Positions 5,180 through 35,951 of a DNA stretch of 45,646 bases are shown here, in pieces (positions within the stretch are counted from its first letter, which is position 1; each line of letters begins with the position of its first letter). The DNA is taken from positions 1-45,646 of the IMG/VR virus record IMGVR_UViG_3300036852_000242; one strand, 5' to 3'. The notes beneath the pieces are model-generated. The model was not told the DNA's origin, made no database searches, and saw only the letters and a list, made by a program, of their open reading frames with translations. Position numbers and translations under genes: made by a program. The stretch comes from a virus.

Positions 5180-5470
5180 GTGAACAGAGCACTGTCACCC
5201 GCGACGAACGCGGCCGGCATCGGCGCGGCCGCCGGCGCGCTGTGGGCGGCGGCCGTCATGGCGTGGAACGCCGCGCACGGCAACGGCGTCATCGACCCGC
5301 AGGTCATCGTCGCCGCCGCGGGGGCGGCCGCGTTCCTGTACACGCGGTTCAAGGTCACGCCCGTGGCTGACCCGAGGGACGGGGCGGGCAGGCCGCTGGT
5401 GCCCGCGATCCCCTCGCGCGGCGGGTTCACGCCGCCTGCGCCGCCGCCCGTGACAGGGCCTACGCCGTGA
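5180..5470 (+). CDS. Holin-like protein, two membrane spans
   Basis: A 96-residue protein with a GTG start eight bases after the previous stop. Two hydrophobic segments are visible, about residues 11-30 (AGIGAAAGALWAAAVMAW) and 38-56 (PQVIVAAAGAAAFLYTRF), followed by a short Pro-rich charged tail. Size, topology and position directly before a peptidase gene fit a holin. Its stop overlaps the next start. No biochemical signature distinguishes it from a generic small membrane protein. Confidence 0.7.
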   Translation: MNRALSPATNAAGIGAAAGALWAAAVMAWNAAHGNGVIDPQVIVAAAGAAAFLYTRFKVTPVADPRDGAGRPLVPAIPSRGGFTPPAPPPVTGPTP

Positions 5471-6003
5471 TGTCCCCCGCGCCCGGCACTATCGGGCTGG
5501 TGAAGATGAGCGCTCCCGCCGCGAGGTGGATCCGGCTGGGGCAGCTGCTGAACGGCGACGGGTTCGAGGACTTCGAGCACGCGTTCGTGTACCTCGGCGA
5601 TGCCGGGACGGGCAACATCCGGAACGGGATCATCGAGGCCGCGCCCGGCGGGTCCAGGATCGTCCCGCTGCATTACGACAACGTGCACTGGTGCGAGGGC
5701 ATCGCGAGCCTGCTGCCCGCCGGCGCTGACGTTCCCGGCGCGGCGCGCGGGCTTGCCGGCGTCCCGTACTCGTTCGCCGACTACGCCGCGTTGGTGGCGC
5801 ACCGGCTGCGCCTGCCCGTGCCGGGGCTTCGCGAGTTCATAGCCGCGTCGGGCCACCAGATCTGCTCGCAGCTGGCCGACGAGCTTTACCTCCGGCTAGG
5901 CGCGCACGTCTTTGACGACGGGCGCTGGCCGGGCTACGTGACGCCGGGCAGCCTGTACCGGCGTGACCTGGAACTACGAAAGGAAAAGAAGGCTGATGAC
6001 TGA
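5470..6003 (+). CDS. Permuted papain-like (YiiX/NlpC-P60-type) peptidase
   Basis: A 177-residue protein starting ATG in the overlap with the holin stop (GTG three bases earlier possible). It reads like the circularly permuted papain fold of the YiiX/NlpC-P60 superfamily: GTIGLVKM, then FEHAFVYLG with candidate catalytic His37, IIEAAPGGSRIVPL, and later HQICSQLADELY with candidate catalytic Cys132. Such proteins cleave amide bonds, often in peptidoglycan stem peptides. Location next to the holin and ahead of the GH25-like gene suggests an endolysin peptidase. The acyl-transferase/LRAT-like alternative is not excluded. Confidence 0.72.
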   Translation: MSPAPGTIGLVKMSAPAARWIRLGQLLNGDGFEDFEHAFVYLGDAGTGNIRNGIIEAAPGGSRIVPLHYDNVHWCEGIASLLPAGADVPGAARGLAGVPYSFADYAALVAHRLRLPVPGLREFIAASGHQICSQLADELYLRLGAHVFDDGRWPGYVTPGSLYRRDLELRKEKKADD

Positions 6004-9952: not shown

Positions 9953-9980
9953 CCCGCGTGCCACAACTCTGGCCCGCGAA

Positions 9981-9991
9981 TGGTAGTACAC
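9981..9991. promoter_or_regulatory. Operator-like site 4 (reverse of GTGTACTACCA)
   Basis: TGGTAGTACAC on the plus strand is the reverse complement of GTGTACTACCA. It overlaps the predicted integrase -10 element, so a protein bound here would block the integrase promoter. Confidence 0.58.
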
Positions 9992-10000
9992 TCCACGGCA
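9987..10000 (+). promoter_or_regulatory. -10 element and leaderless start of integrase
   Basis: TACACT (9987-9992) is followed by seven bases and ATG at 10000. There is no Shine-Dalgarno sequence ahead of this ATG, which fits a leaderless mRNA. The -35 is not clear. Confidence 0.5.
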
Positions 10001-11409
10001 TGGCTGACAAGGCCGCGCTGGCGGCGATCTACACCCGCATGTCATACGCGCTCGACCACGACCAGACCAAGGTCCGCGACCAGGAGCGCATCGCCCGCAG
10101 CCTGGCCGCCGCCCGCGGCATCCCGGTCCGCGAGGAGTCCGTCTACTGCGACAACAACCGCTCGGCGTGGGCGCGCAACCGCAAGCGGCCAGGCTGGGAC
10201 GCCATGCTCGCCGACGTCGACGCCGGGCGCGTCGGCGTGATCATCACCTACCACGGCGACCGCATGATCAGGCAGCCGCGCGACCTGGAGACGCTCATCG
10301 AGCTGGCCGACTCCAGGAGGGTCCGGGTGATCTCCGTGTCCGGCGACAAGGACCTCGACAGCGCCGAGGACCGGTACGTGCTGCGCATCGAGGCGGCCGC
10401 GCAGTGCAAGTCCTCCGACGACACGAGCCGCCGGCGCAAGGCGCAGTACCAGCGGTGGGCGCTGGAGGGCCGCGTGCAGGCCGCGGTGTCCGGCGGCCGG
10501 CGCATGGGCTTCGCGCCCGACGGGCTGCGGCTGTGGCCGGCCTGCCGGTGCGACGCCGTCACCCGCGCCGAGGTGTCCGAGGCCGACGTGATCCGCGAGA
10601 TGGCGCGCCGCGTGCTGGCCGGGGAGTCGCGCCGCTCCGTCGCGGCGAGCCTCGCCGCCCGCGGCTGGACCGCGCCGTCCGGCGCGCCGGTCACGGCCGA
10701 GCGGGTGCGCGACTGGCTGGCCAACCCGCGCTACGCCGGCCTGATGCCCGACGGGGAGAGCAAGGCGGCGTGGCCGGCGATCCTGGAGCGGGAGGAGTGG
10801 GAGGCGCTGCGCGTCGTAGGCGGCCGGATCGCCGGCGCTAACCCGCGGCCGACCAACGCGCGCCGCTGGCTGCTGTCCGGCATCGCCGCCTGCGGCCGCT
10901 GCGGCGCGCCCCTGTCCACCGGGGCTTCCGGCGAGGGCTACAGCGCCTACACGTGCCCGGCCCACCACCTGCGGCGCGCGGCGGAGCCGCTGGACGCCTA
11001 CGTGTCCGGCTACGTGACGGAGGCGCTCGCCGATCCCGCCGGGCCTCCGGCGGCGCTGCCCGCCAGCCCGGCGGCGGCCGCCGAGTGGCGGGCGCTGGAG
11101 GCTGAGCAGGCCGACGCGGAGGCGCAGCTGGCGGACTACCGCGCGAGCGCCAGGCGGTCCCGGCTGCTCAACGCGCGCCTCGACGGCATCGAGCGGCGGA
11201 TGGCGCAACTCCGCGAGGCCGCGGGCACGTCCGCGCGGGAGCGGCTGGCGCGCCAGTACCAGGGGATCACGCTGGAGGCGTTCCGGGGGCTGCCGTTGGA
11301 CGTCCGCCGCGCCCTGGTGCGCGCGACCGTGACGGTGACCGTGCTGCCCGCGTCCCGGCGCGGGCCGGGGTTCCGCGAGTGCGACGTCCGCGTGGAGCGG
11401 GCGGGCTAG
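10000..11409 (+). CDS. int: Large serine recombinase (integrase)
   Basis: A 469-residue protein. The N-terminal resolvase domain starts AAIYTRMS with nucleophile Ser15, then KVRDQERI and VIITYHGDRMIRQPRDLETL. It is followed by the recombinase domain (VLAGESRRSVAASLAARGWT; NPRYAGLMP), a zinc ribbon (Cys298, Cys301, Cys319, His322/323) and a coiled coil (about residues 360-410), the plan of phage large serine integrases. It integrates the genome by attP x attB recombination; excision would need a directionality factor not recognised here. The stop TAG shares CTAG with the convergent gene's stop. Confidence 0.95.
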   Translation: MADKAALAAIYTRMSYALDHDQTKVRDQERIARSLAAARGIPVREESVYCDNNRSAWARNRKRPGWDAMLADVDAGRVGVIITYHGDRMIRQPRDLETLIELADSRRVRVISVSGDKDLDSAEDRYVLRIEAAAQCKSSDDTSRRRKAQYQRWALEGRVQAAVSGGRRMGFAPDGLRLWPACRCDAVTRAEVSEADVIREMARRVLAGESRRSVAASLAARGWTAPSGAPVTAERVRDWLANPRYAGLMPDGESKAAWPAILEREEWEALRVVGGRIAGANPRPTNARRWLLSGIAACGRCGAPLSTGASGEGYSAYTCPAHHLRRAAEPLDAYVSGYVTEALADPAGPPAALPASPAAAAEWRALEAEQADAEAQLADYRASARRSRLLNARLDGIERRMAQLREAAGTSARERLARQYQGITLEAFRGLPLDVRRALVRATVTVTVLPASRRGPGFRECDVRVERAG

Positions 11410-11870: not shown

Positions 11871-11959
11871 GGATGCTCCCCGTTATGCCCGCATGGCGCG
11901 GCTAGGCGTCCCTTTCCCTGACGATAGCGCATGCTTCCCGTGAAATTGCACGGAAACTA

Positions 11960-11987
11960 TTGCAACCGGGAAAGACGCGGGGATAAC
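11960..11987 (+). promoter_or_regulatory. Putative promoter for small membrane gene
   Basis: TTGCAA (11960-11965), a 16-base spacer and GATAAC (11982-11987) resemble a housekeeping promoter in an AT-richer gap. ATTGCA also occurs 15 bases earlier, giving a short direct repeat. Confidence 0.42.
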
Positions 11988-12044
11988 GTCCTATCACAGC
12001 GCATGGCCCGCGCCCTGCAATCGCTTACAGAGGGGGAACCGGCA

Positions 12045-12344
12045 ATGCCCGTGAGCCTGCTGACGGCCATGCTCCGCGTGCTCAGCTGGGCGATGGTCCC
12101 GGCGTGGCCGCTCGCCGCGGCGGCGGCCGTCCTGTGGACGGCGCGGCTGGAGCTGCTGCTGCTGACGGTCGCGTCGACCGGCAGCATCGCCGGGCTGGCG
12201 CTGCTGCTGATGCGGCTGGCCAGGGAGCGCGCCGAAGAGTACGCGCGGCTGGGGCAGCAGCGCGCGTCGGAGTACGCACGGCTAGAGCAGCTGCTAGTGG
12301 GGGGCATCGTTGACCTGCACCCGCGCGGCAAGCGGGACGGCTAG
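12045..12344 (+). CDS. Small two-span membrane protein with coiled coil
   Basis: A 99-residue protein. ATG 12045 is preferred because GAGGGGG precedes it; ATGs at 11931 and 12003 would extend it through sequence unlike coding text. Hydrophobic segments at about 12-32 and 34-55 (LELLLLTVASTGSIAGLALL) are followed by a charged helix with a repeated EYARL(G/E)Q pattern. It lies between the moron and the repressor, convergent with the latter, their stops sharing CTAG. Superinfection exclusion is possible; not shown. Confidence 0.6.
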   Translation: MPVSLLTAMLRVLSWAMVPAWPLAAAAAVLWTARLELLLLTVASTGSIAGLALLLMRLARERAEEYARLGQQRASEYARLEQLLVGGIVDLHPRGKRDG

Positions 12345-12757
12345 CAGGCGGCCTGGCTATCGGGCGGCGCGGCACGGCGTGCGGCGCGGACCCGCTCAAG
12401 CTCGGCGATGATCTCGTCGGCCTCGTCGGGGGCGTAGCGGCGCAGCGAGGCGGCCAGCTCGGGCGCGACCAGCGGCTCTGGGGGCAGCTCGGGCGGGTCC
12501 TCCCACGGGTGGCCGGCGGCCCTCACCAGGTCGCGGGCAAGCTCGGGATAGCGGGGCAGGATGGCCCAGGCGAGGTCCTGGACCGGGATGCGGCTGGGCT
12601 GCGGCGCGGGCACGCCGCCCTCGCCCATCCAGCGGTAGACCGTCTGCGGCTGCGAGACCCCGGCCATCGCGGCCATCTGCGTGACGCTGATGCCCTTGTC
12701 ATCTCGCAAGCCCTTCAGGATCGCTATTACGCGGGAGCGATCCCACCTCTGTCTCAT
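12341..12757 (-). CDS. Immunity repressor (helix-turn-helix, CI-like role)
   Basis: A 138-residue protein on the minus strand, divergent from the Cro-like gene. The N-terminal domain has RSRVIAILKGLRDDKGISV and a helix-turn-helix TQMAAMAGVSQPQTVYRWMG (about 25-44); the C-terminal part is Pro-rich then helical (DEADEIIAELERVRAARRA). ATG 12757 is chosen because it lies seven bases after -10 TATGAT. An ATG at 12769 overlaps that -10 and would be untranscribed. An operator lies between its -35 and -10, so it probably represses itself and the Cro-side promoter to maintain lysogeny. Confidence 0.78.
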   Translation of the reverse strand: MRQRWDRSRVIAILKGLRDDKGISVTQMAAMAGVSQPQTVYRWMGEGGVPAPQPSRIPVQDLAWAILPRYPELARDLVRAAGHPWEDPPELPPEPLVAPELAASLRRYAPDEADEIIAELERVRAARRAAPPDSQAAC

Positions 12758-12764
12758 GCGCACA

Positions 12765-12795
12765 ATCATAAACGTCTCTCGCGCGTGAGAGTCAA
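12765..12795 (-). promoter_or_regulatory. Repressor promoter, leaderless
   Basis: On the minus strand, TTGACT (12795-12790), a 19-base spacer and TATGAT (12770-12765), then seven bases to ATG 12757. Operator 1 fills the spacer. The -10 matches TATAAT in five of six positions; the spacer is slightly long. Confidence 0.65.
12775..12791. promoter_or_regulatory. Immunity operator O1
   Basis: TCTCTCGCGCGTGAGAG with CTCTC/GAGAG arms around GCGCGT. It lies between the -35 and -10 of the repressor promoter. Its first 14 bases recur exactly at 12825-12838. Confidence 0.7.
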
Positions 12796-12805
12796 TAGTG
12801 GCGAA

Positions 12806-12823
12806 GATTACAGGACTGTAATC
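12806..12823. promoter_or_regulatory. Perfect palindrome GATTACAG-GA-CTGTAATC
   Basis: Eight-base arms and a two-base centre, located between O1 and O2 in the repressor/Cro interval. It differs in sequence from the TCTCTC operators, so it may bind another regulator such as the Cro-like protein. Confidence 0.65.
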
Positions 12824-12824
12824 A

Positions 12825-12838
12825 TCTCTCGCGCGTGA
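12825..12838. promoter_or_regulatory. Immunity operator O2
   Basis: TCTCTCGCGCGTGA, an exact repeat of the first 14 bases of O1, 50 bp away and in the same orientation. The right arm (AACT) diverges from GAGAG. Confidence 0.65.
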
Positions 12839-12899
12839 ACTACCCTGCCCCTCAGGGTGCCCTGTCGCTTGTCACCGCCCTGCTGCCAGCGCATGCCGC

Positions 12900-12936
12900 T
12901 TGCATCTCAGGCAAGAGAGAGTTAGTCTCTCTCTCA
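12900..12936 (+). promoter_or_regulatory. Promoter of Cro-like gene with operator O3, leaderless
   Basis: TTGCAT (12900-12905), a 17-base spacer and TAGTCT (12923-12928), then seven bases to ATG 12936. The inverted repeat GAGAGA-GTTAG-TCTCTC (12915-12931) covers the -10 and shares its arms with O1, so the repressor could shut this promoter. Confidence 0.6.
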
Positions 12937-13187
12937 TGACAGAGACTGCCTCCCCGGTGGTACGGCTCAGGCGCGATGCCTGGGATGCGTGGGTAGCGCG
13001 ACGGGAACTCGGTGCCCGCGTGCTGCAGGCGGCGCACGTCTGCGTCTCCGAGCCCACGCTGTACCGCGCCCTGTCCGGCTCGCCAGTCGGCGAGGAGTTC
13101 ATCGCGGGCTGCATGGCCAGGTTCGACGGCACCTTCGAGGAGCTGTTCGAGGTCACCGAGGCCGCGACCGAGCGGGCCGCGTCGTGA
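12936..13187 (+). CDS. Cro-like DNA-binding protein
   Basis: An 83-residue protein, first gene of the rightward early operon and divergent from the repressor. A helical stretch (DAWDAWVARRELGARVLQAA) is followed by a helix-turn-helix-like segment (VSEPTLYRALSGSPVGEEFI) and an acidic end (FEELFEVTEAATE) similar to XRE/Cro family tails. Predicted leaderless start. By position it would oppose the repressor and favour lytic growth. Confidence 0.68.
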   Translation: MTETASPVVRLRRDAWDAWVARRELGARVLQAAHVCVSEPTLYRALSGSPVGEEFIAGCMARFDGTFEELFEVTEAATERAAS

Positions 13188-13825: not shown

Positions 13826-14594
13826 GCTGCCAGCCGCGCCCCGCGTCGCCGTCGAGGTCCCGGTCGTGCTCGACGCCGAGTCACGCTCGGCCGCCGACCG
13901 CAGGCCCTCGCTGATCAAGTTCCGGTCCCGCGCCGAGATCAGGCGGCACGTCAACGAGTGCATGCTGCTCATCGGCGCGCTGCCGGACGACGGCGAGTCC
14001 AGCGAGATCGCCTGGCGCGAGCCGGCGCCGGAGCACCGCGACGCCTTCTGGGCCGCGCACCCGCAGGCCGCCGCCGCGCTCGCGAACGTGCCCGGCGCGG
14101 GACTGGACGACCCGGCCGTCACCGCCCCGGGCACCGTCGCCGCTCCCCCGGCCCACGAGGACTGGTGCGCGGGCGGCCACGACGAGGGCACCCGGTGCCA
14201 GGTCGTCAGCCGCCTGTCCTGCGGCTGCACGTTCACCGCCCCGGACCCCTGGCCCGCTGGCCGGCCGTCGTGGTGCGACACCCACGGCGACGTCACCACG
14301 GCCGCCGCGCTGTGCGGCGCCGCCCGCGACGGGCGCTCCTGCAAGCTCCCGCCGCACGAGGGCGGCGAGCACGACTGCGACGGCTGGCGCTGGCATGACG
14401 CGCCGCCCGCCGTGCTGGACGCGCGCACCGCCATGGCGGCTGGCGTGCTCGACGCCGCGATCAACGGCGGGACGCCCGTCATCGTCGGGGATGATGAGGA
14501 CCCTAACGAGGCTGACGGCTGGGGCGCTGCCGAGGCCGCCAGTGCCGAGGCGATCGACGCGCAGGAGCGCGCGGGGACGAGGGCCGCGCGGTGA
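13818..14594 (+). CDS. Hypothetical Cys/His-rich early protein
   Basis: A 258-residue protein; ATG 13818 overlaps the preceding gene by eight bases. The middle carries several potential metal ligands: EDWCAGGHDEGTRCQ, SRLSCGCTF, SWCDTHGD, LCGAARDGRSCKLPPHEGG and HDCDGWRWH. The C-terminus is acidic and helical. It may be a multi-zinc protein; no family recognised. Confidence 0.65.
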   Translation: MPELPAAPRVAVEVPVVLDAESRSAADRRPSLIKFRSRAEIRRHVNECMLLIGALPDDGESSEIAWREPAPEHRDAFWAAHPQAAAALANVPGAGLDDPAVTAPGTVAAPPAHEDWCAGGHDEGTRCQVVSRLSCGCTFTAPDPWPAGRPSWCDTHGDVTTAAALCGAARDGRSCKLPPHEGGEHDCDGWRWHDAPPAVLDARTAMAAGVLDAAINGGTPVIVGDDEDPNEADGWGAAEAASAEAIDAQERAGTRAAR

Positions 14595-15615: not shown

Positions 15616-15977
15616 GCGACGGCAAGGGCACGAAGGTGCTCGCCGAGGGCATCATGACCGGCCCGCTGGCCCCGCTCGCCTGGACGATCGCCGTCCTCGG
15701 CTGCGGCGGCATCGCCGTCGCGGTGCTCGCGTGCATCGGCGGGTGGGTGCTGCGGGACCTGTGGGACAAGGGCGACGGCCAGGGCGGCATACCGCCGCTG
15801 CCCCGCGACGGGACGACGCAGCAGCTGCCGCTAGGCGACCTCGTCATCGCCCCGCCGGAGTGGCGGCACGCCGCGTACATGGCCGCGCGGCCCGCGCCGG
15901 ATGCCACCGAGGTCATCTGCCGCGGGCGCGGCCTCGGCGACCTGGACCCTGACCCCGCGCTAGGAGACGACTGGTGA
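15612..15977 (+). CDS. Early membrane protein
   Basis: A 121-residue protein with ATG overlapping the previous TGA. Residues about 16-43 are hydrophobic (PLAPLAWTIAVLGCGGIAVA, VLACIGGWVL), one long or two short spans, followed by a soluble acidic tail. It precedes the recombination genes and is translationally coupled to them. Function unknown. Confidence 0.62.
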   Translation: MSDGKGTKVLAEGIMTGPLAPLAWTIAVLGCGGIAVAVLACIGGWVLRDLWDKGDGQGGIPPLPRDGTTQQLPLGDLVIAPPEWRHAAYMAARPAPDATEVICRGRGLGDLDPDPALGDDW

Positions 15978-16990
15978 GCGCCGTCCTGATCCCGACCGCG
16001 TCCGAGGAGGAGTGGCTGGCCGCCCGCCGCAAGGGCGTCACCGCCTCCGAGATCGCCGTCCTGATGGGCCTGTCCCCGTACGACAGCCCCTACGGCCTCT
16101 ACCACCGCAAGCTCGGCATCCTGCCCGCCGGTGACGACTCCGACGTCATGGAGAAGGGCCGCGTCCTCGAGCCGGTCATCGCGGAGAAGTTCGCCGCACT
16201 GCACCCGGAGTGGATCGTCACCGGCAACGGGCGCCAGCTGTACGCGCACCGTGACCGCGCCTGGCAGCTCGCCACCCCGGACAGGCTCGTCAACGTCAAC
16301 CCCATCGACCCGGCCCAGTGGCTCAAGGGAACGGAAGGCGCCGTCCTGGAGTGCAAGGTCGACGGCGGCAGCCCCGACTGGGGCGAGCCGGGCACCGACG
16401 AGATACCCGTCCACTACCGCGCCCAGGTGCTGTGGCAGTGCCGCGTCATGGGCGTCACCCGCTGGCACGCCGCCTGCTTCAATGCCGACCGGTGGAAGGC
16501 CCGCTGGTACGAGGGCGTCATCGACGACGCAGCCGAGGCCGACCTCGCCCTGATGGAAGACGAGGCCCGCGACTTCCTCGATCGCCTCGACCGCCATGAT
16601 CCGCCCGAGGTCGACTGGCGGCCGGCCACCATCGGCGCGCTGAAGACGCTGTACGCGGGCGAGCCTGACGGCGACGTCGAGGTGCGCCGGTCGCTGGCCA
16701 TCCAGTACCGCGCCGCCTGCCGCCGGTTCAAGGAGGCCGAGCGGCGCAAGGACGAGATGACCGCCCGCATGCTCGCCGCGATCGGCAACGGCCGCCGCGC
16801 CATCGAGGCATGCACCGACCTCGACGGCAGTGGCGGCACCGTCATCGCCACCCGCTCCGTCAGCCACCCCAGGCGCATCGACACCGAGCGGCTGCGCGCC
16901 GAGCAGCCCGCCATCGCCGCGCAGTACACCAAGCCGCCCAAGCCGGAGCCGAAGCTGACCCCGGCCAAGCCGAAGAAGGACGTCAAGTGA
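15974..16990 (+). CDS. YqaJ/RecE-like phage exonuclease
   Basis: A 338-residue protein, GTG start overlapping the upstream stop. It has the YqaJ/lambda-exonuclease pattern: RRKGVTASEIAVLMGLSP near residue 20, VLEPVIAEKF, LATPDRLV, and LECKVD (Glu126, Lys128), the E-x-K of the PD-(D/E)xK core, then AQVLWQCRVMGV. Such enzymes resect double-stranded DNA 5' to 3' and hand single strands to an annealing protein; the next gene encodes the RecT partner. The Pro/Lys-rich C-terminus may be a contact tail. Confidence 0.88.
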   Translation: MSAVLIPTASEEEWLAARRKGVTASEIAVLMGLSPYDSPYGLYHRKLGILPAGDDSDVMEKGRVLEPVIAEKFAALHPEWIVTGNGRQLYAHRDRAWQLATPDRLVNVNPIDPAQWLKGTEGAVLECKVDGGSPDWGEPGTDEIPVHYRAQVLWQCRVMGVTRWHAACFNADRWKARWYEGVIDDAAEADLALMEDEARDFLDRLDRHDPPEVDWRPATIGALKTLYAGEPDGDVEVRRSLAIQYRAACRRFKEAERRKDEMTARMLAAIGNGRRAIEACTDLDGSGGTVIATRSVSHPRRIDTERLRAEQPAIAAQYTKPPKPEPKLTPAKPKKDVK

Positions 16991-18066
16991 CACAGACAGT
17001 CAGTAACGCCGTCGCCAAGAGGGACTCCGGCGCCGCCGAGCTCGTCCGCCAGTCCCGCGACTGGTTCCGCACCATCGTCCCGTCCCACGTCGACGCCAAC
17101 GCGTTCGTCGCCCTGTCCATCGGCTACCTGCGCAAGAACCCCAAGCTCGCCGCCGCCGCCGTCCGCGCCCCGGCCGCGTTCACCGTCGCCCTGTCCGAGT
17201 GCGCCCGCCTCGGCCTCGTCCCCGGCGACACCTACCACCTGGTGCCGTTCGAGAACACCCGCAACGGCACCGTCGACATCACCGGCATCACCGACTACAA
17301 GGGCGAGATCGAGCTGATCTACCGGGCCGGGGCCGTCGCCTCGGTCAAGGCCGAGATCGTCCGCGAGCGCGACCACTTCCGCTACACCACCGACATGGAC
17401 CGCCCCGAGCACGCCCCCGACTGGTTCGGCGACCGCGGCGGCCTGATCGGCGCGTACGCCTACGCGGTGATGAAGGACGGCGCGACGTCGAAGGTCATCG
17501 TCTACTCGAAGGCCGAGATCGACGAGGTCCGCGCGTCATCCAAGGGCGCGTCCCGGCCAGACAGCCCGTGGAACCAGTGGTATGACCGGATGGCGCTCAA
17601 GACCGTCATCCACCGGCTGGAGCACTTCGTCCCCACCTCGGCGGAGTACCGGCGCGAGCAGCTCCGCGCGGCGGCCGAGGTCAGCCAGCAGGTGAACCTG
17701 TCCGCCCCGCCGGCTGCCGCTGCCCCCGCGCCCGCTGCCCCCGCGCCCGACGTCGTCGACGCCGAGATCGTCGATGAGCCGCAGCAGCCCGCGCCACGCC
17801 GGCCCAGGGGACAGCAGGCCCGGCAGGAAGCGCCGCCGGAGGACCCGCGCGACGCCGTCACCTGGCACCTGGACCGGGTCGGGATCGTCGCCTACCAGCC
17901 CCAGATGGACGTGCTCACCCAGGCCGTGGACCGCGCCGTCACGGGCATCGACGGCATCACCGTCGAGGAGGCCGCCGCGCTCGCGGCCCGGCTCGCGAAG
18001 TGCGCCACCCCGGCCGACGTCGACGTGATGCTCAGGACCGGGGAGGTGCCCTCCGGTGGCGAGTGA
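16987..18066 (+). CDS. recT: RecT-family single-strand annealing protein
   Basis: A 359-residue protein, GTG start overlapping the exonuclease stop. The RecT core is clear: FVALSIGYLRKNPKLAAA, FTVALSECARLGLVPGDTYH, DITGITDYKGEIELIYRAGA, GAYAYAVMKDG, PWNQWYDRMALKTVIHRL. A Pro/Ala linker and a C-terminal helical domain follow. RecT proteins coat and anneal single-stranded DNA; with the upstream nuclease this is a complete phage recombination pair for genome concatemers or circularisation. Confidence 0.93.
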   Translation: MTQTVSNAVAKRDSGAAELVRQSRDWFRTIVPSHVDANAFVALSIGYLRKNPKLAAAAVRAPAAFTVALSECARLGLVPGDTYHLVPFENTRNGTVDITGITDYKGEIELIYRAGAVASVKAEIVRERDHFRYTTDMDRPEHAPDWFGDRGGLIGAYAYAVMKDGATSKVIVYSKAEIDEVRASSKGASRPDSPWNQWYDRMALKTVIHRLEHFVPTSAEYRREQLRAAAEVSQQVNLSAPPAAAAPAPAAPAPDVVDAEIVDEPQQPAPRRPRGQQARQEAPPEDPRDAVTWHLDRVGIVAYQPQMDVLTQAVDRAVTGIDGITVEEAAALAARLAKCATPADVDVMLRTGEVPSGGE

Positions 18067-18614: not shown

Positions 18615-18681
18615 CCCCTGCCCGCTGTGCGAGCGGGACCACCCGGAGGGCACGGCGTGCCAGGGGAGGGACGGTGGCTAG
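18607..18681 (+). CDS. 24-residue zinc-knuckle-like peptide
   Basis: GTG start after GGGGAGGCGGTG, overlapping the previous frame by eight bases and the next by eight. The product VRSPCPLCERDHPEGTACQG contains CxxC, His and Cys in a compact array. The regular overlap pattern is the main support; it is too short for certainty. Confidence 0.38.
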   Translation: MRSPCPLCERDHPEGTACQGRDGG

Positions 18682-18835
18682 CCCCGCGCCGGGCACGGCC
18701 CGCGACCCGCGCCGGGCGCCGCTGGACGGCCGCGCCCTGCTCGCGGCCATCCTGCCGGAAGGGACCTGCGTCACCTGCCTGGAGCCGGAGGTGTCGCCAC
18801 TGCACTACGAGCTGTGCGAGGCGGGCGATGGCTGA
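18674..18835 (+). CDS. 53-residue protein with CxxC
   Basis: GTG start with a good ribosome site (AGGGGAGGG). It has a Pro/Arg-rich start, then RALLAAILPEGTCVTCLEPE and a last Cys near HYELCEAG. Overlaps the DUF5131 start by eight bases. Function unknown. Confidence 0.5.
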   Translation: MASPAPGTARDPRRAPLDGRALLAAILPEGTCVTCLEPEVSPLHYELCEAGDG

Positions 18836-19613
18836 CGCCTCGAAAATCGAGTGGACCGACGCCACCTGGAACCCCGTCACCGGCTGCGCGAAGGTCTCGC
18901 CCGGCTGCGACCACTGCTACGCCGAGACGTTCGCCAACCGGTGGCGCGGCATCCCCGGCCACCACTTCGAGAACGGGTTCGACGTCCAGCTCCGGCCCGA
19001 GCGGCTAGACCAGCCGCTGCGGTGGAAGCGGCCGAGGCGGGTGTTCGTCAACTCCATGAGCGACCTGTTCCACAAGGACGTGCCGGACTCCTTTATCGCA
19101 GAGGCGTTCTCCGTGATGGCCAGGGCACAGCAGCACACGTTCCAGCTGCTGACCAAGCGCCACGCCCGGATGAAGGCGCTGCTATCACGGCCCTCATTCC
19201 GGGACAACCTCGCCCACTGGGGGGCGCCATGGCCCCTCCCGAACGTCTGGCTCGGCGTCTCTGCCGAGGACCAGCACTGGGCGAACCTCCGCATCCCCGG
19301 GCTGCTTCACACTCCGGCGGCGATCAGGTTCGTCTCCGCCGAGCCGCTGCTCGGCCCGGTTGACCTTACCGGGATGTGCGCCATCGACTGGCTGATCATC
19401 GGCGGCGAGTCAGGCCCCGGTGCCCGGCCGATGGACCTGGAGTGGGCGCGCTCCCTGGTCTGGCAGTGCCAGGCGGGCGAGCTGCCCGTCCACGTCAAGC
19501 AGCTCGGGTCCGTGCTCGGGCGCCAGCTGGGCGCGGGGCCGAAGGGCGGCGACTGGGACCGGTGGCCCGAGGACCTCCGCGTCCGCGAGTTCCCGGCGGC
19601 AAGCGATGGCTGA
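18828..19613 (+). CDS. DUF5131 (phage Gp37/Gp68-like) radical-SAM-like protein
   Basis: A 261-residue protein. It opens with ASKIEWTDATWNPVTGC and then the cluster TGCAKVSPGCDHCYAETFA, the Cys pattern of the phage Gp37/Gp68 family (DUF5131), thought to be related to radical SAM proteins. Further family text: VFVNSMSDLFH, FQLLTKRHARM, NVWLGVSAEDQ, FVSAEPLLGP, DWLIIGGESGPGARPM. The biochemical role is unknown. Here it sits between recombination, nuclease and methyltransferase genes, compatible with DNA or RNA modification. Confidence 0.88.
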   Translation: MADASKIEWTDATWNPVTGCAKVSPGCDHCYAETFANRWRGIPGHHFENGFDVQLRPERLDQPLRWKRPRRVFVNSMSDLFHKDVPDSFIAEAFSVMARAQQHTFQLLTKRHARMKALLSRPSFRDNLAHWGAPWPLPNVWLGVSAEDQHWANLRIPGLLHTPAAIRFVSAEPLLGPVDLTGMCAIDWLIIGGESGPGARPMDLEWARSLVWQCQAGELPVHVKQLGSVLGRQLGAGPKGGDWDRWPEDLRVREFPAASDG

Positions 19614-29283: not shown

Positions 29284-30777
29284 GTGGGCGTCCTTGACCG
29301 GGTGAACGCCCGCGCGGCGCGGCGCGGGCACGGCGATGAGGCCCGTTTCGGGATCGATGACTGGATCAGCCAGTACCTGATCCCGTCGGCGGGCCAGTTC
29401 AACTTCGGCGGGGTCACGTACCCGTTCGGCGGCCTGTCGGGGCTGAGCCAGACGCTGGCGGGCGCGCGGGCGGCGGAGATCGCGAACTCGCTGCCGGGGT
29501 ACCGGGCGGCGCTGCAGCAGTGCCCGCCGGCGTTCGCGGCGCAGATGGTGCGGGCGCTGGTGCTGTCGCAGGCGCGGTTCACGTTCCGTAACCCGCCGTG
29601 GCACCCGAGGACGCCGCGGCGGCTGTTCAGCAACGGCGACCTGGCGGTGCTGGAGAAGCCGTGGCCGAACGGGACGACCGGGGACCTGGTGTCGCGGATG
29701 GAGTGGCACGCGGGCCTGGCCGGGAACGCGTTCGTGCTGCGGCAGCCCAGGCGGCTGCGGGTGATGCGCCCGGACTGGACGGCGATCCTGTACGGGTCGG
29801 AGACGGAGCCGGAGTGGCCGTCGGGGGCGCTGGACGCGGAGCTGCTCGGCTACGTGCACGCGAACCGGGGGATCGGCAACGGGGAGCCGCGGCTGCTGCT
29901 GCCGGCGGACGTGGCGCACTGGGCGCCGCTGCCGGACCCGGAGATGACCGGGCTGGGCATGAGCTGGCTGACGCCGGCTATCCGGGAGATGCAGGTTGAC
30001 CGGCTGGCGACCGAGCACCAGCTGAGGTTCTTCGAGAACGGCGCGACGCCGAACCTGGTCGTCAAGGGGATCCCGGCGATTGACCGCACCAAGTTCGACG
30101 AGCTCGTCGCGATGATGGAGGCGGAGCACGCCGGGGTGGCGAACGCCTACCGGACGCTGTACCTGGTGGCGGGCGCGGACGCGCAGGTGATCGGGTCGCA
30201 CCTGGCGGACCTGGACCTGAAGGGGATCCAGGGGGCGCGGGAGACGCGCCTGTCGGTGCTGAGCCGGGTGCCGGCGGCGCTGCTGGGGATCTCCGAGGGC
30301 CTGTCCGGGTCGTCGCTGAACGCGGGGAACTTCTCGGCGGCGCGGCGGCTGTTCACGGACTCGTGGGTATCGCCGTCGCTGCAGGGCCTGGCGGCGGCGC
30401 TGTCGACGATCATGACGGTCCCTGATGACGCGGAGCTGTGGACCGACACCACGGACATGCCGATCCTGCGCGAGGACGCGAAGGACGCCGCGGACATCGG
30501 GCAGGTGCAGGCCACCACGATCGCGACCTACGTGAAAGAGGGCTTCACGCCGGAGTCGTCGATCGCGGCGGTCCGCGGCCAGGACGTCACGCTGCTGAAG
30601 CACTCGGGCATGGTGAGCGTCCAGCTGTGGGCGCCGGGCGGTGAGTCGCCGCGCAAGCCCGAGCCGGGCGCGGAGTCGCCGTCCCAGCCGACGGGGTCCG
30701 GGTCGCCGTCGCTGAAGGGCGCGAAGGCCCCGGGCGATAAGGCGCTCATGGCACCGAACGGAGGCGGGAATGGCTGA
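29284..30777 (+). CDS. Portal protein (HK97 type)
   Basis: A 497-residue protein, GTG start. Typical portal text includes MEWHAGLAGNAFVLRQPRRL, VAHWAPLPDPEMTGLGMSWL, DRLATEHQLRFFENGATPNL and VLSRVPAALLGISEGLSGSS followed by NAGNFSAARRLFTDSW. It forms the dodecameric ring for DNA entry and tail attachment. The Pro/Ser/Lys-rich C-terminus is disordered. It overlaps the protease gene by eight bases. Confidence 0.92.
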   Translation: MGVLDRVNARAARRGHGDEARFGIDDWISQYLIPSAGQFNFGGVTYPFGGLSGLSQTLAGARAAEIANSLPGYRAALQQCPPAFAAQMVRALVLSQARFTFRNPPWHPRTPRRLFSNGDLAVLEKPWPNGTTGDLVSRMEWHAGLAGNAFVLRQPRRLRVMRPDWTAILYGSETEPEWPSGALDAELLGYVHANRGIGNGEPRLLLPADVAHWAPLPDPEMTGLGMSWLTPAIREMQVDRLATEHQLRFFENGATPNLVVKGIPAIDRTKFDELVAMMEAEHAGVANAYRTLYLVAGADAQVIGSHLADLDLKGIQGARETRLSVLSRVPAALLGISEGLSGSSLNAGNFSAARRLFTDSWVSPSLQGLAAALSTIMTVPDDAELWTDTTDMPILREDAKDAADIGQVQATTIATYVKEGFTPESSIAAVRGQDVTLLKHSGMVSVQLWAPGGESPRKPEPGAESPSQPTGSGSPSLKGAKAPGDKALMAPNGGGNG

Positions 30778-32521
30778 CGTGCCCGGCGGCCACGCGGACG
30801 CGCTGCACCGGTACTGGGTGCACGGCGAGGGCGCGGCGAAGATCGCCTGGGGCACTCCCGGCGACTTTGACCGCTGCGTCGTGGAGCTCGGCAAGTACAT
30901 CCATGACCCGAAGGGCTACTGCAACCTCGCGCACCACGCGGCGCTCGGCTACTACCCGGCGACGCACGCGAAGATGGAGGGGAAATCGGTGGCTGGCGAC
31001 GATGGCGACCCGCGGTTCAACCCGAATCACGTGCCGGGAGGCGCGGGCGGCGGCCAGTTCACGTCCGGCGGCGGGGGCGGCAAGGGCGCTGCCGGCAAGA
31101 AGCCCGCGCCCCGCCCTGCCCAGAAGCAGCTGACGGACCACGAGAAGCACGTGGCGCACATGAAGAACCTGGCCGCGCACCCGGTCGGCGAGGGCGAGTC
31201 CGGCCAGCGGGTCCGCGACCTGCAGGACCGCCTGAACGAGCTGGGCTTCAGCCTGGCCCCGGACGGCAAGTTCGGGCCGAAGACGCTGGCGGCGGTGCGC
31301 GCGTTCCAGCGTGCCCACAAGGACGCGTCCGGTCATCCGCTGGCCGTGGACGGCCTGGTGGGGCCGCTGACAATGGCGGCACTGGAGGCAGCGCGGCCTG
31401 CGGCGCCGCATAAGGCCGCGAGTCACGCCGGCCCCGCGCCGCACGGCGCCGGGAAGCAGAAGGGCAGGTCGGCGATGGCGGCGGGAACGGGCAGGCAGGT
31501 CATCGATGCGATCAGCAGGTACGACCGCGCCGCGAAGCCGTACGGCGATGTCACGTACGCGGACCCGAAGAACGGCAAGTACCCCATCGACACAGCAGAG
31601 CACGCCAAGGCGGCCTGGTCGTACATAAGCATGCCGGCGAACGCGGCGCAGTACCCGGTGAACGGGGTGACGCTGGCCGAGGTCAAGGACCGCATCATGG
31701 CGGCCTGCAAGAAGTTCGGCATCACCGTCAGCGACTCCGACGGCGACATGAACGCGGCGCACTTCGCCCCTGACGTGGACGTGGTCCGCTCCGGCGAGGG
31801 CATCACGCTGGAGCCCGCCGGCGACGGCTCGCTGGGGACGCTGACGGGCCGGTTCTCCGAGTTCGGCCGCTGGTACCCGGTGTCGTCGCGCCTAGAGGGC
31901 AGCTTCCGCGAGCGCGTCGCCCCTGGCGCGACCCTGGACACGATCCGCGATGACCGGGCGTCGATGCGGGTGCTGTTCGATCACGGGATGGACGGCCAGA
32001 TCGGCAACAAGGTGCTCGGCCCGATCGGCGCGCTGGACGAGCGGTCCGACGGCCCGTGGTATGAGGTGCCGCTGTTCGACACGTCCTACAACCGTGACCT
32101 GCTGCCGGGCCTGAAAGCCGGGGTGTACGGGGCGAGCATGCGCATGCGGGTCCTGGACGACTCCTGGGACGACGAGCCGAAGCGGTCGGCGGACAACCCG
32201 GAGGGGATCCCGGAGCGGACGATCACCCGGATGAAGGTGCTGGAGTTCGGCCCGGTGACGTTCCCGGCGAACCCTGGCGCGTCGGCGGGGGTCCGGTCGG
32301 CGACGGACGAGTTCTACGGCCGCCTCGCCGAGGTGAACCCCCCGGCGTTCGCGGACGCGGTGCGGGCCTGCGGCCTGCGCCCCGAAGACTTCACCGGCCT
32401 GGTTACCGCGCGGAGCGGCCCGGGCCGGGAGCACGACGTGCAGCCAGGCCACGGCAGGACGTCACCGACCACCAAGGCGGCCCTGCGCGACAGGGCCTGG
32501 CGCATGAGGGAGATCAGGTAG
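30770..32521 (+). CDS. Prohead serine protease fused to peptidoglycan-binding and other domains
   Basis: A 583-residue protein. Residues 1-70 form a small domain (RYWVHGEGAAKIAWGTPGDF, YCNLAHHAALGYY). A linker HVPGGAGGGQFTSGGG precedes a PG_binding_1-like repeat at about 141-208 (RVRDLQDRLNELGF, FGPKTLAAVRAFQRAH, VDGLVGPLTMAALE). A DUF6582-like part follows at about 255-310 (YPIDTAEHAKAAWSYI). The HK97-type prohead protease spans about 355-520, with candidate His405 (VLFDHGMDG) and Ser456 (VYGASMRMRV). The protease matures the capsid; the binding domain is unusual here. Confidence 0.85.
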   Translation: MADVPGGHADALHRYWVHGEGAAKIAWGTPGDFDRCVVELGKYIHDPKGYCNLAHHAALGYYPATHAKMEGKSVAGDDGDPRFNPNHVPGGAGGGQFTSGGGGGKGAAGKKPAPRPAQKQLTDHEKHVAHMKNLAAHPVGEGESGQRVRDLQDRLNELGFSLAPDGKFGPKTLAAVRAFQRAHKDASGHPLAVDGLVGPLTMAALEAARPAAPHKAASHAGPAPHGAGKQKGRSAMAAGTGRQVIDAISRYDRAAKPYGDVTYADPKNGKYPIDTAEHAKAAWSYISMPANAAQYPVNGVTLAEVKDRIMAACKKFGITVSDSDGDMNAAHFAPDVDVVRSGEGITLEPAGDGSLGTLTGRFSEFGRWYPVSSRLEGSFRERVAPGATLDTIRDDRASMRVLFDHGMDGQIGNKVLGPIGALDERSDGPWYEVPLFDTSYNRDLLPGLKAGVYGASMRMRVLDDSWDDEPKRSADNPEGIPERTITRMKVLEFGPVTFPANPGASAGVRSATDEFYGRLAEVNPPAFADAVRACGLRPEDFTGLVTARSGPGREHDVQPGHGRTSPTTKAALRDRAWRMREIR

Positions 32522-34273: not shown

Positions 34274-34516
34274 ATGGAAGTCGTCTACGCCACGTACACC
34301 GCGCAGGTGGTCACCCCTGACGGGGGCCGCCACACGGTCCACGGGGGGCAGCACTGGCACCCCAGGCACCCCGTGGTCCTGGCCGCGCCTGAAGGGCTGT
34401 TCTCGCCCGATGCCCGGTACGGGCTGTCGGGCGGCGTGCCGCCGGAGCTGGATGAGCCGCCGGTCGAGCAGGCGACGGCGGGGCCGGGCGAGAAGCGGGC
34501 CACGCGCCGTGGCTGA
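34274..34516 (+). CDS. Small hypothetical head-region protein
   Basis: An 80-residue protein with ribosome site CGGGAGAAG before ATG. A beta-like N-terminal half (VYATYTAQVVTPDGGRHTVH, QHWHPRHPVVLAAPEGLF) and an acidic/Pro tail. Small proteins of this type occur near head-tail connectors of actinobacterial phages. Function unknown. Confidence 0.62.
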   Translation: MEVVYATYTAQVVTPDGGRHTVHGGQHWHPRHPVVLAAPEGLFSPDARYGLSGGVPPELDEPPVEQATAGPGEKRATRRG

Positions 34517-35951
34517 CGTGGCCGCCCTGGACCGCGCGGGGGCAGTCGCCGTCGGCTACGTCTACGACGGGCACGACGTCACCTACAGCTGGCATCACAG
34601 CATGATCGAGCTGATCGGCTACGACCTGTGCCATGAGGCGCGGGTCATCCGCGGCGGGTACGTGGCGATGAAGTGCGGCACTGACGGCCTGGCCGACGCC
34701 CGCAACAAGGCCGTGAGGCTGTTCCTGAAGGAGAACCTGGCCGACTGGCTGTTCTGGGTGGACACCGACATGGGGTTCGCCGCTGACACGGTCGACCGGC
34801 TGATGGCGGCTGCCGACCCCGTGGAGCGGCCCATCGTCGGCGGGCTGGCGTTCACCTGGCGGGAGGACTCCTCCGACGGCATGGGCGGCTGGCGCACCTC
34901 GCCCGCGCCGACCATCTTCGACTGGCGGGTGCTGGACGACGGCCAGATGGGCTTCGTGGTCCGGTTCAACTACCCGCCGGACACGCTGACGCCCTGCGCG
35001 GGGACCGGCGCGGCGTGCGTGCTCATCCACCGGTCAGTGTTCGAGCGGGTTAAGGCCGAGTACGGCGAGCACTGGTATGACCGGATCCCGAACACGACGA
35101 CCGGGCAGCTGGTGTCCGAGGACCTGAGCCTGTGCCTGCGCGCGGGGGCGCTGAAGATCCCCGTCCACGTGCACACCGGGGTGAAGACGACCCACCAGAA
35201 GACGCTGTGGGTGGCGGAGGACGACTACATGGCGGCGCGGGTGCTGGCCGCCATGCCGCCCCCGGTGCCCGCCGCCACGGAGGAAGTGGCGGTGATCGTC
35301 CCGGTGCTGGGCAGGCCGGGCAACGCGGCCCCGTTCATGGCGTCGCTGAAGGCGTCCGGCGCTGAACTCGCCGCCGTGTACGCGGTCGCTGACGAGGACG
35401 ACGCGGAGACGGCGCGGGCGTGGAAGGAAGCCGGGGCCAGGGTCATCGCCATAGACCGGGCTAGCCTGCCCGGCAGGCCGGGGACGTTCGCCGAGAAGGT
35501 CAATGTCGCCTACCGGATGACGGAAGAGCCGTGGCTGCTGCTGGTCGGCGATGACGTCCGGTTCCGTCCGGGCTGGCTGGACCACGCGCAGCACGCGGCC
35601 CGCGACGGCGCTGACGTCATCGGCACCAATGACATGCACAGCCCCCGGTGCGCCACTGGAGAGTGGTCGCCGCACCCGGTGATCCGCCGCGCCTACGTCG
35701 ACGAGGTGGGCGCGTCGTGGGACGGCCCGAAGGTCGTGGCCCACGAGGGCTACCACCACAACTTCCCGGACGATGAGATCGCGGCGGCGGCGGCGCAGCG
35801 GGGCGCGTGGGCGTTCGCGGCGCACGCGAAGGTGGAGGCGCTGCACCCGATGTGGGGCAACGCGCCCGACGACGCGACGTACGCGCTGGGGCGCGAGCGG
35901 TTCGCCGAGGACAAGGCGCTGTTCGAGGCACGGGCGGGTGAGCACTCGTGA
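34509..35951 (+). CDS. Tandem glycosyltransferase (two GT-A domains)
   Basis: A 480-residue protein, GTG start overlapping the upstream gene by eight bases. The first domain (about 15-250) has CGTDGLADARNKAV, the metal-binding DTD in WLFWVDTDMGF (85-87), and EDLSLCLRAG. The second (about 260-470) restarts with VAVIVPVLGRPGNAAPFMAS and has LLLVGDDVRFRPGWLD (Asp348/349). Both look like family-2-type GT-A folds. Lying in the head module with a methyltransferase nearby, it may decorate a capsid or fibre protein, or less likely modified DNA. Confidence 0.82.
   Translation: MADVAALDRAGAVAVGYVYDGHDVTYSWHHSMIELIGYDLCHEARVIRGGYVAMKCGTDGLADARNKAVRLFLKENLADWLFWVDTDMGFAADTVDRLMAAADPVERPIVGGLAFTWREDSSDGMGGWRTSPAPTIFDWRVLDDGQMGFVVRFNYPPDTLTPCAGTGAACVLIHRSVFERVKAEYGEHWYDRIPNTTTGQLVSEDLSLCLRAGALKIPVHVHTGVKTTHQKTLWVAEDDYMAARVLAAMPPPVPAATEEVAVIVPVLGRPGNAAPFMASLKASGAELAAVYAVADEDDAETARAWKEAGARVIAIDRASLPGRPGTFAEKVNVAYRMTEEPWLLLVGDDVRFRPGWLDHAQHAARDGADVIGTNDMHSPRCATGEWSPHPVIRRAYVDEVGASWDGPKVVAHEGYHHNFPDDEIAAAAAQRGAWAFAAHAKVEALHPMWGNAPDDATYALGRERFAEDKALFEARAGEHS

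Follow-up and report, generated by a model that had tools for sequence, protein, structure and literature searches.

What reads the DNA between a divergent phage repressor gene and a Cro-like gene when this DNA carries two kinds of site, one repeated and the other a distinct palindrome? The first-pass annotation of the interval 12757–12936 had noted such an arrangement and suggested separate binding by repressor and Cro, or by a third regulator. The window, that is the whole stretch of DNA analysed (45,646 nt, GC 72.7%), corresponds to IMG/VR virus record IMGVR_UViG_3300036852_000242. The two end positions of this interval are the A of the repressor ATG and the A of the Cro ATG. The genes that define its setting are the following.

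9958–11409, plus strand: serine integrase on the repressor side (phrog_95 integrase, 2.9e-59; Pfam Resolvase and Recombinase), with a homologue in L002, the related phage compared below.
12341–12757, minus strand: repressor gene, 138 aa, XRE-like HTH, with the ATG at 12757 (MRQRWD) as start.
12936–13187, plus strand: Cro-like gene, an 83-aa HTH protein, first gene in the early lytic operon (phrog_3642 HTH DNA binding protein, E 2.5e-7).
15974–18066, plus strand: RecE-like exonuclease (15974–16990) and RecT (16810–18066), early lytic genes on the cro side.

Terminase, portal, prohead protease and capsid are encoded in addition to the serine integrase and RecE/RecT, which makes this a temperate tailed phage. 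Integrase matches are mostly to Streptomyces, Mycobacterium and Gordonia phages, and the best capsid matches to Mycobacterium and Gordonia phages, plus many weaker Streptococcus ones, all below 60% identity. As the integrase and the best capsid matches belong to actinomycete phages, the host is likely a high-GC actinomycete. When switch region, repressor and Cro were compared by blastn and tblastn with 50,697 phage records, 0 matches were obtained, and searches of genome contigs with the Cro alignment or the integrase as query found no relatives.

Several other genes of the window were recorded in passing. The stretch 11931–12344, flanked by the integrase and repressor genes, encodes a small hydrophobic protein in convergent orientation to the repressor, found at the same place in L002 (4053–4457); it is possibly a superinfection-exclusion gene. 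The 583-aa ORF at 30770–32521 joins a peptidoglycan-binding domain (144–205), DUF6582 (253–322) and prohead protease S78 (357–509), that is, a head maturation protease fused to a cell-wall binding module. An enoyl-CoA hydratase-like ORF (phrog_1128) is located at 5467–6003 and a glycosyltransferase-like ORF at 34410–35951, flanked by capsid and connector genes; behind RecT, the early region encodes a DUF5131 protein (18627–19613; E 2.6e-87).

That a repressor and a Cro-like gene diverge from this interval, as annotated, is borne out by HTH matches, a fold model of the repressor, the phrog_3642 match and synteny with L002. The repressor shows weak matches to Pfam and PHROGs repressors, all of them in the HTH; no S24 peptidase (self-cleavage) domain was detected in these two collections. 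Its AlphaFold model (pLDDT 84.6) shows an HTH domain of five helices, similar to the XRE, 434 Cro and CapH folds; with Foldseek every E-value was above 0.1, yet the best-match probabilities were near 1. An in-frame ATG at 12769 was rejected as repressor start, the L002 homologue beginning with the same MRQxWD. For the Cro-like protein, which has a 53% identical homologue in L002, the Cro identity is predicted only from the PHROG match and synteny; its structure model was poor (pLDDT 55.8) and not usable.

Promoters were placed by eye and are hence predicted; a simple, strict sigma-70 scan and a terminator scan found nothing. The proposed elements are listed here.

12765–12770, minus strand: repressor promoter −10, TATGAT, 7 nt before the ATG at 12757.
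12790–12795, minus strand: repressor promoter −35, TTGACT, a weak element, with a 19-bp spacer.
12900–12905, plus strand: cro promoter −35, TTGCAT, with a 17-bp spacer to TAGTCT.
12923–12928, plus strand: cro promoter −10, TAGTCT, 7 nt before the cro ATG.

The cro promoter layout, TTGCAT-17-TAGTCT-7-ATG, is found in L002 as TTGCGT-17-TAGTGT-7-ATG, and on the L002 repressor side TACTGT lies 6 nt before the ATG, so that in both phages a distance of 6–7 nt separates −10 and ATG on either side. No Shine-Dalgarno sequence could be recognised by inspection upstream of repressor or cro. Because of this and of the short −10 to ATG spacing, both genes are probably leaderless, and transcription from the two divergent promoters would begin at the repressor and Cro-like start codons or no more than a base away. 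Such an organisation has a precedent in the immB region of telomere phage PY54, where RACE showed that cI and cro mRNAs are leaderless and start at AUG; the mRNA of lambda cI is leaderless too (both as stated in PMC4488713). The likeness to PY54 lies in the predicted leaderless transcripts on both sides and implies no sequence relationship. A further likeness is that PY54 Cro binds a single palindrome close to the repressor promoter; PY54 differs in having one recognised operator only (PMC4488713).

The annotated operators O1 (12775–12788) and O2 (12825–12838) are indeed identical 14-mers 50 bp apart, and this repeat is longer than any obtained when the interval was dinucleotide-shuffled 2,000 times, the longest direct repeat then being at most 12. 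The hexamer TCTCTC occurs 6 times in 45.6 kb, on both strands, and all copies fall inside 12775–12935. Extra operators across the genome, which the annotation had proposed to look for, were not found as TCTCTC (0 outside the switch, about 5 expected under a Markov-2 model of the rest of the window). The idea that TCTCTC is avoided genome-wide outside the switch was given up, as 25 of 1,497 hexamers show the same behaviour. With up to three mismatches, the 14-mer was seen 11 times in the whole window against 12.6 expected. As these loose matches are not enriched, the operator signal is the exact hexamer cluster.

A PWM was built from four 18-mers (S1 12775+, S2 12825+, S3 12920−, S4 12926+). 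These four gave the top scores in the window, and when any one was left out it still scored above every non-site position. They share the core TCTCTC-N5-TGA, with a weaker right arm. A possible half-site is given with them.

12775–12792, plus strand: S1 (O1), TCTCTCGCGCGTGAGAGT, in the repressor promoter, between the proposed −35 and −10; L002 equivalent TGTCGCAGCGATGCGAAA.
12825–12842, plus strand: S2 (O2), TCTCTCGCGCGTGAACTA, left arm strong, right arm weak; L002 equivalent TGTCGCTTCCATAGAAAC.
12903–12920, minus strand: S3, the left half of O3, TCTCTCTTGCCTGAGATG, between cro −35 and −10; L002 equivalent TGTCGCTTCGGCGCGACG.
12926–12943, plus strand: S4, the right half of O3, TCTCTCTCTCATGACAGA, covering the cro −10 and start codon.
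12750–12755, plus strand: S0, possible half-operator TGTCTC, overlapping repressor codons 1–3; TGTCGC at the same place in L002.

The predicted position of S1 agrees with the earlier placement of O1 within the repressor promoter spacer. As for S0, codon 2 of the repressor is AGA, a codon absent from the 362 Arg codons counted in ten window genes; its reading as a half-operator is speculative, and other explanations exist for AT-rich codons near starts.

The third operator deserves separate discussion. O3 had been described as a dyad over the cro −10, and the GAGAGA/TCTCTC dyad AGAGAGAG-N5-CTCTCTCT is present at 12914–12934. It could be one inverted operator, GAGAGA-N5-TCTCTC, of a geometry unlike that of O1 and O2, a reading compatible with any other view of the switch. 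The dyad is exact, its 5-bp gap is kept in L002 (GCGACA-TGTAG-TGTCGC), and in mycobacteriophage BPs a palindrome with CGACA/TGTCG arms lies between P_R −10 and −35 (PMC4557955). Nevertheless, both arms extend outward into the N5-TGA pattern of S1 and S2 (TCTCTC-ttgcc-TGA and TCTCTC-tctca-TGA), and O3 then consists of the left arms of S3 and S4 facing away from each other across the cro −10, each site being 18 bp long like those at O1 and O2. Because each arm continues into this pattern, two full sites explain more, and we consider a single inverted operator rather unlikely. The switch is thus best read, from its sequence, as four TCTCTC-N5-TGA(GAG) sites, two per promoter; the dyad of the annotation stands, its status as one operator less so.

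L002 was the sole homologous switch recovered from IMG/VR (Cro 53%, repressor 41% identity); an exact search there with the 14-mer returned mostly chance matches, and a paired-site scan of these gave no more convincing switches. Integrase, repressor and Cro are shared by the two phages; terminase and RecT were searched for in L002 and not found. S1–S4 lie at matching positions in L002, with an S1–S2 spacing of 49 bp compared to 50 in the window. Every left arm has changed from TCTCTC to TGTCGC, and no TCTCTC is present in the L002 interval. In a leave-one-out PWM for L002, S2 and S4 were clean, S1 had one rival position and S3 six; as support is weaker for the latter two, they are placed by position and the exact hexamer. 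The predicted recognition helices differ as well between window and L002, QPQTVYRWM against RSTIYRWM and SEPTLYRAL against NRQHLYKII, so that both repressor and Cro have changed. Such changes are as expected if operators co-evolve with their readers.

The second kind of site behaves separately, in keeping with the two operator types of the annotation: the arms were swapped together in L002 and the palindrome was kept.

12806–12823, no strand: palindrome GATTACAG-GA-CTGTAATC, with 8-bp arms, centred 47 bp upstream of the repressor −10.

This perfect palindrome lies between O1 and O2, as described earlier. Its core motif, ATTACAG-N2-CTGTAAT, occurs once in the window and once in L002, and no second copy of ATTACAGNNCTGTAAT was found in the window at up to three mismatches (0.07 expected). 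The core is identical at 15 of 16 positions in L002, compared to 64 of 151 (42%) for the remaining intergenic DNA, and no other 16-bp block between the two genes is as well conserved; this measure comes from one pair, since a single homologous relative was found. In both phages, 57.5 bp separate its centre from the repressor ATG.

Three other explanations of the palindrome were rejected. A bidirectional −10 (TGTAAT on both strands) was discarded by inspection because no convincing −35 exists at 16–18 bp on either side in both phages. An RNA hairpin or terminator would have a 2-base loop and would lie upstream of both proposed starts. BldD, a streptomycete regulator, recognises 5′-TNAC(N)5GTNA-3′ (PMC4151990), a spacing that does not fit TTAC-N6-GTAA as found in all four phage records compared. 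The literature was also searched for the motif and for known host factors with such a site, and no match was obtained.

To see how far the motif extends, we consider its distribution in IMG/VR, where a scan for ATTACAG-N2-CTGTAAT gave at least 119 stretches; a narrower pattern gave 32, of which 28 were shared with the first scan, and the full total is perhaps 130–140. This total could arise by chance, and most matches look like chance. Among the few GC-rich matches, L219 and L189 carry the palindrome between divergent XRE genes, beside the repressor promoter; being 95% identical to each other here, they count as one case. Their operators, TTGCCAC-N3/4-TGGCAA, lie at the repressor promoter, where the N3 form is beside the palindrome, and at the cro promoter. 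Mycobacteriophage Cro-like matches to the L219 Cro were set aside as uninformative, coming from regions without a divergent repressor. Assuming that a switch occupies about 0.25% of a phage genome, some 0.3 chance cases of a palindrome in a switch would be expected among about 100 independent matches, and two were seen beyond the window's family. By this rough estimate, recurrence in unrelated switches is modestly unlikely by chance, which is suggestive only.

In the 116-kb phage L195, five palindromes were found at up to two mismatches (0 in a reversed control), four of them 37–39 bp before a repeated promoter-like element. Across phages, centre-to-(−10) distances are 36, 37–39, 47 and 48 bp; they form two clusters that differ by about one helical turn, as would be the case for upstream activator sites. 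The L195 arrangement is a cassette of palindrome, about 20 nt, TACGTCTAAATA and Shine-Dalgarno sequence (3533 and 6854; also G004 14530–14568, L237 2031–2069), one place having two divergent copies, and looks like a regulon with a common upstream site.

The palindrome might also be bound by nothing specific, as a chance or lineage relic kept by short divergence, leaving the TCTCTC sites alone functional. Its pair-wise conservation and the IMG/VR motif total are compatible with this. Such a relic would nevertheless have stayed almost unchanged amid diverged non-coding DNA, with a perfect dyad in both phages, as a single copy in a 73% GC genome, and would have a counterpart on the same side of P_rep in L219/L189. 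We find this explanation improbable.

As to which protein would read the palindrome, one answer is a division of labour, in which the repressor or Cro would bind the TCTCTC sites and the other one the palindrome, with no third factor involved. Two regulators and two site types do share one interval, and another phage family speaks for the idea: in L119 (8392 and 8651; also L131, L182 and L217), ATTACAGAACTGTAAT occurs twice, 259 bp apart, around a small XRE Cro-like ORF. This pair probably constitutes the operators of that family, and in Firmicutes-like phages a similar palindrome seems to serve as an ordinary operator. Since L119-type phages appear to use it so, such a palindrome is probably readable for a repressor or Cro of XRE type. 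These switches resemble that of the window in having a near-identical palindrome beside XRE genes, but it is present in two copies and is apparently the operator itself. Against a division of labour in the window, the recognition helices of both proteins differ from those of L002 while the palindrome is the same, and the repressor of L219 gave no match to the profile of the window's repressor, yet the L219 switch carries this palindrome. A two-protein scheme thus seems possible but doubtful. Between the two options of the annotation, a third regulator is somewhat favoured, as predicted from sequence, because both recognition helices changed, and the palindrome is unchanged and recurs in unrelated switches.

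The switches of lambda, 434 and P22 comprise divergent cI and cro HTH genes, repeated near-dyad operators and recombination genes on the cro side. The window shares with the lambda type the divergent repressor and Cro-like HTH genes around a common control region, the repeated near-dyad operators overlapping both predicted promoters, the early recombination genes behind cro and an integrase on the lysogenic side. It differs from the lambda/434 subtype by its short 138-aa repressor devoid of the S24 cleavage domain, and from the lambda type by four sites in two pairs, the extra unrelated conserved palindrome and the serine integrase. In BPs (gp33-gp34), a second operator lies near P_rep, one operator half is easily recognised and the other variable, and further operators exist elsewhere in the genome (PMC4557955). 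The window resembles BPs in its small actinophage repressor and operator placement, and the BPs arms resemble those of L002. In contrast, it uses a serine integrase and confines TCTCTC to the switch; a tblastn search for a BPs-like homologous repressor in the 50,697 phage records gave no match. Staphylococcus phage phi11 has homologous operators between two divergent repressor genes (PMC3991615). It is a Firmicute phage, and the abstract describes no second conserved palindrome for it.

Taken together, these results suggest that 12757–12936 is a lysis-lysogeny switch with phage operators and a palindrome for a third reader, probably of the host and likely activating the repressor promoter, an account to which we give an even chance. 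S1–S4 would be the operators of the phage-encoded repressor and/or Cro, each protein shutting off the opposite side or its own gene. The palindrome, just upstream of the repressor promoter, would be the site of a third DNA-binding protein that probably comes from the host, or in some other way does not follow the specificity of the repressor, and that would most likely tune, by activation, the repressor promoter. As the constraint on the palindrome does not follow repressor/Cro specificity, a third reader at this promoter is the simplest account. More tentatively, a single protein, probably an actinomycete host transcription factor, might read the palindrome beside the repressor promoters of several unrelated temperate phages; host physiology would then vote on lysogeny while each phage's operators diverge freely into new immunity groups.

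The switch itself is of an ordinary kind, and the independently conserved palindrome is its interesting part. In the window/L002 pair all switch sites have changed together with the layout kept, and phages with the same layout and different operator arms are expected to fall into different immunity groups. Within one control region, the unchanged palindrome separates recognition by the phage's own repressor from recognition by something else. If a host factor does read it, the palindrome would offer a handle on the influence of actinomycetes over lysogeny.
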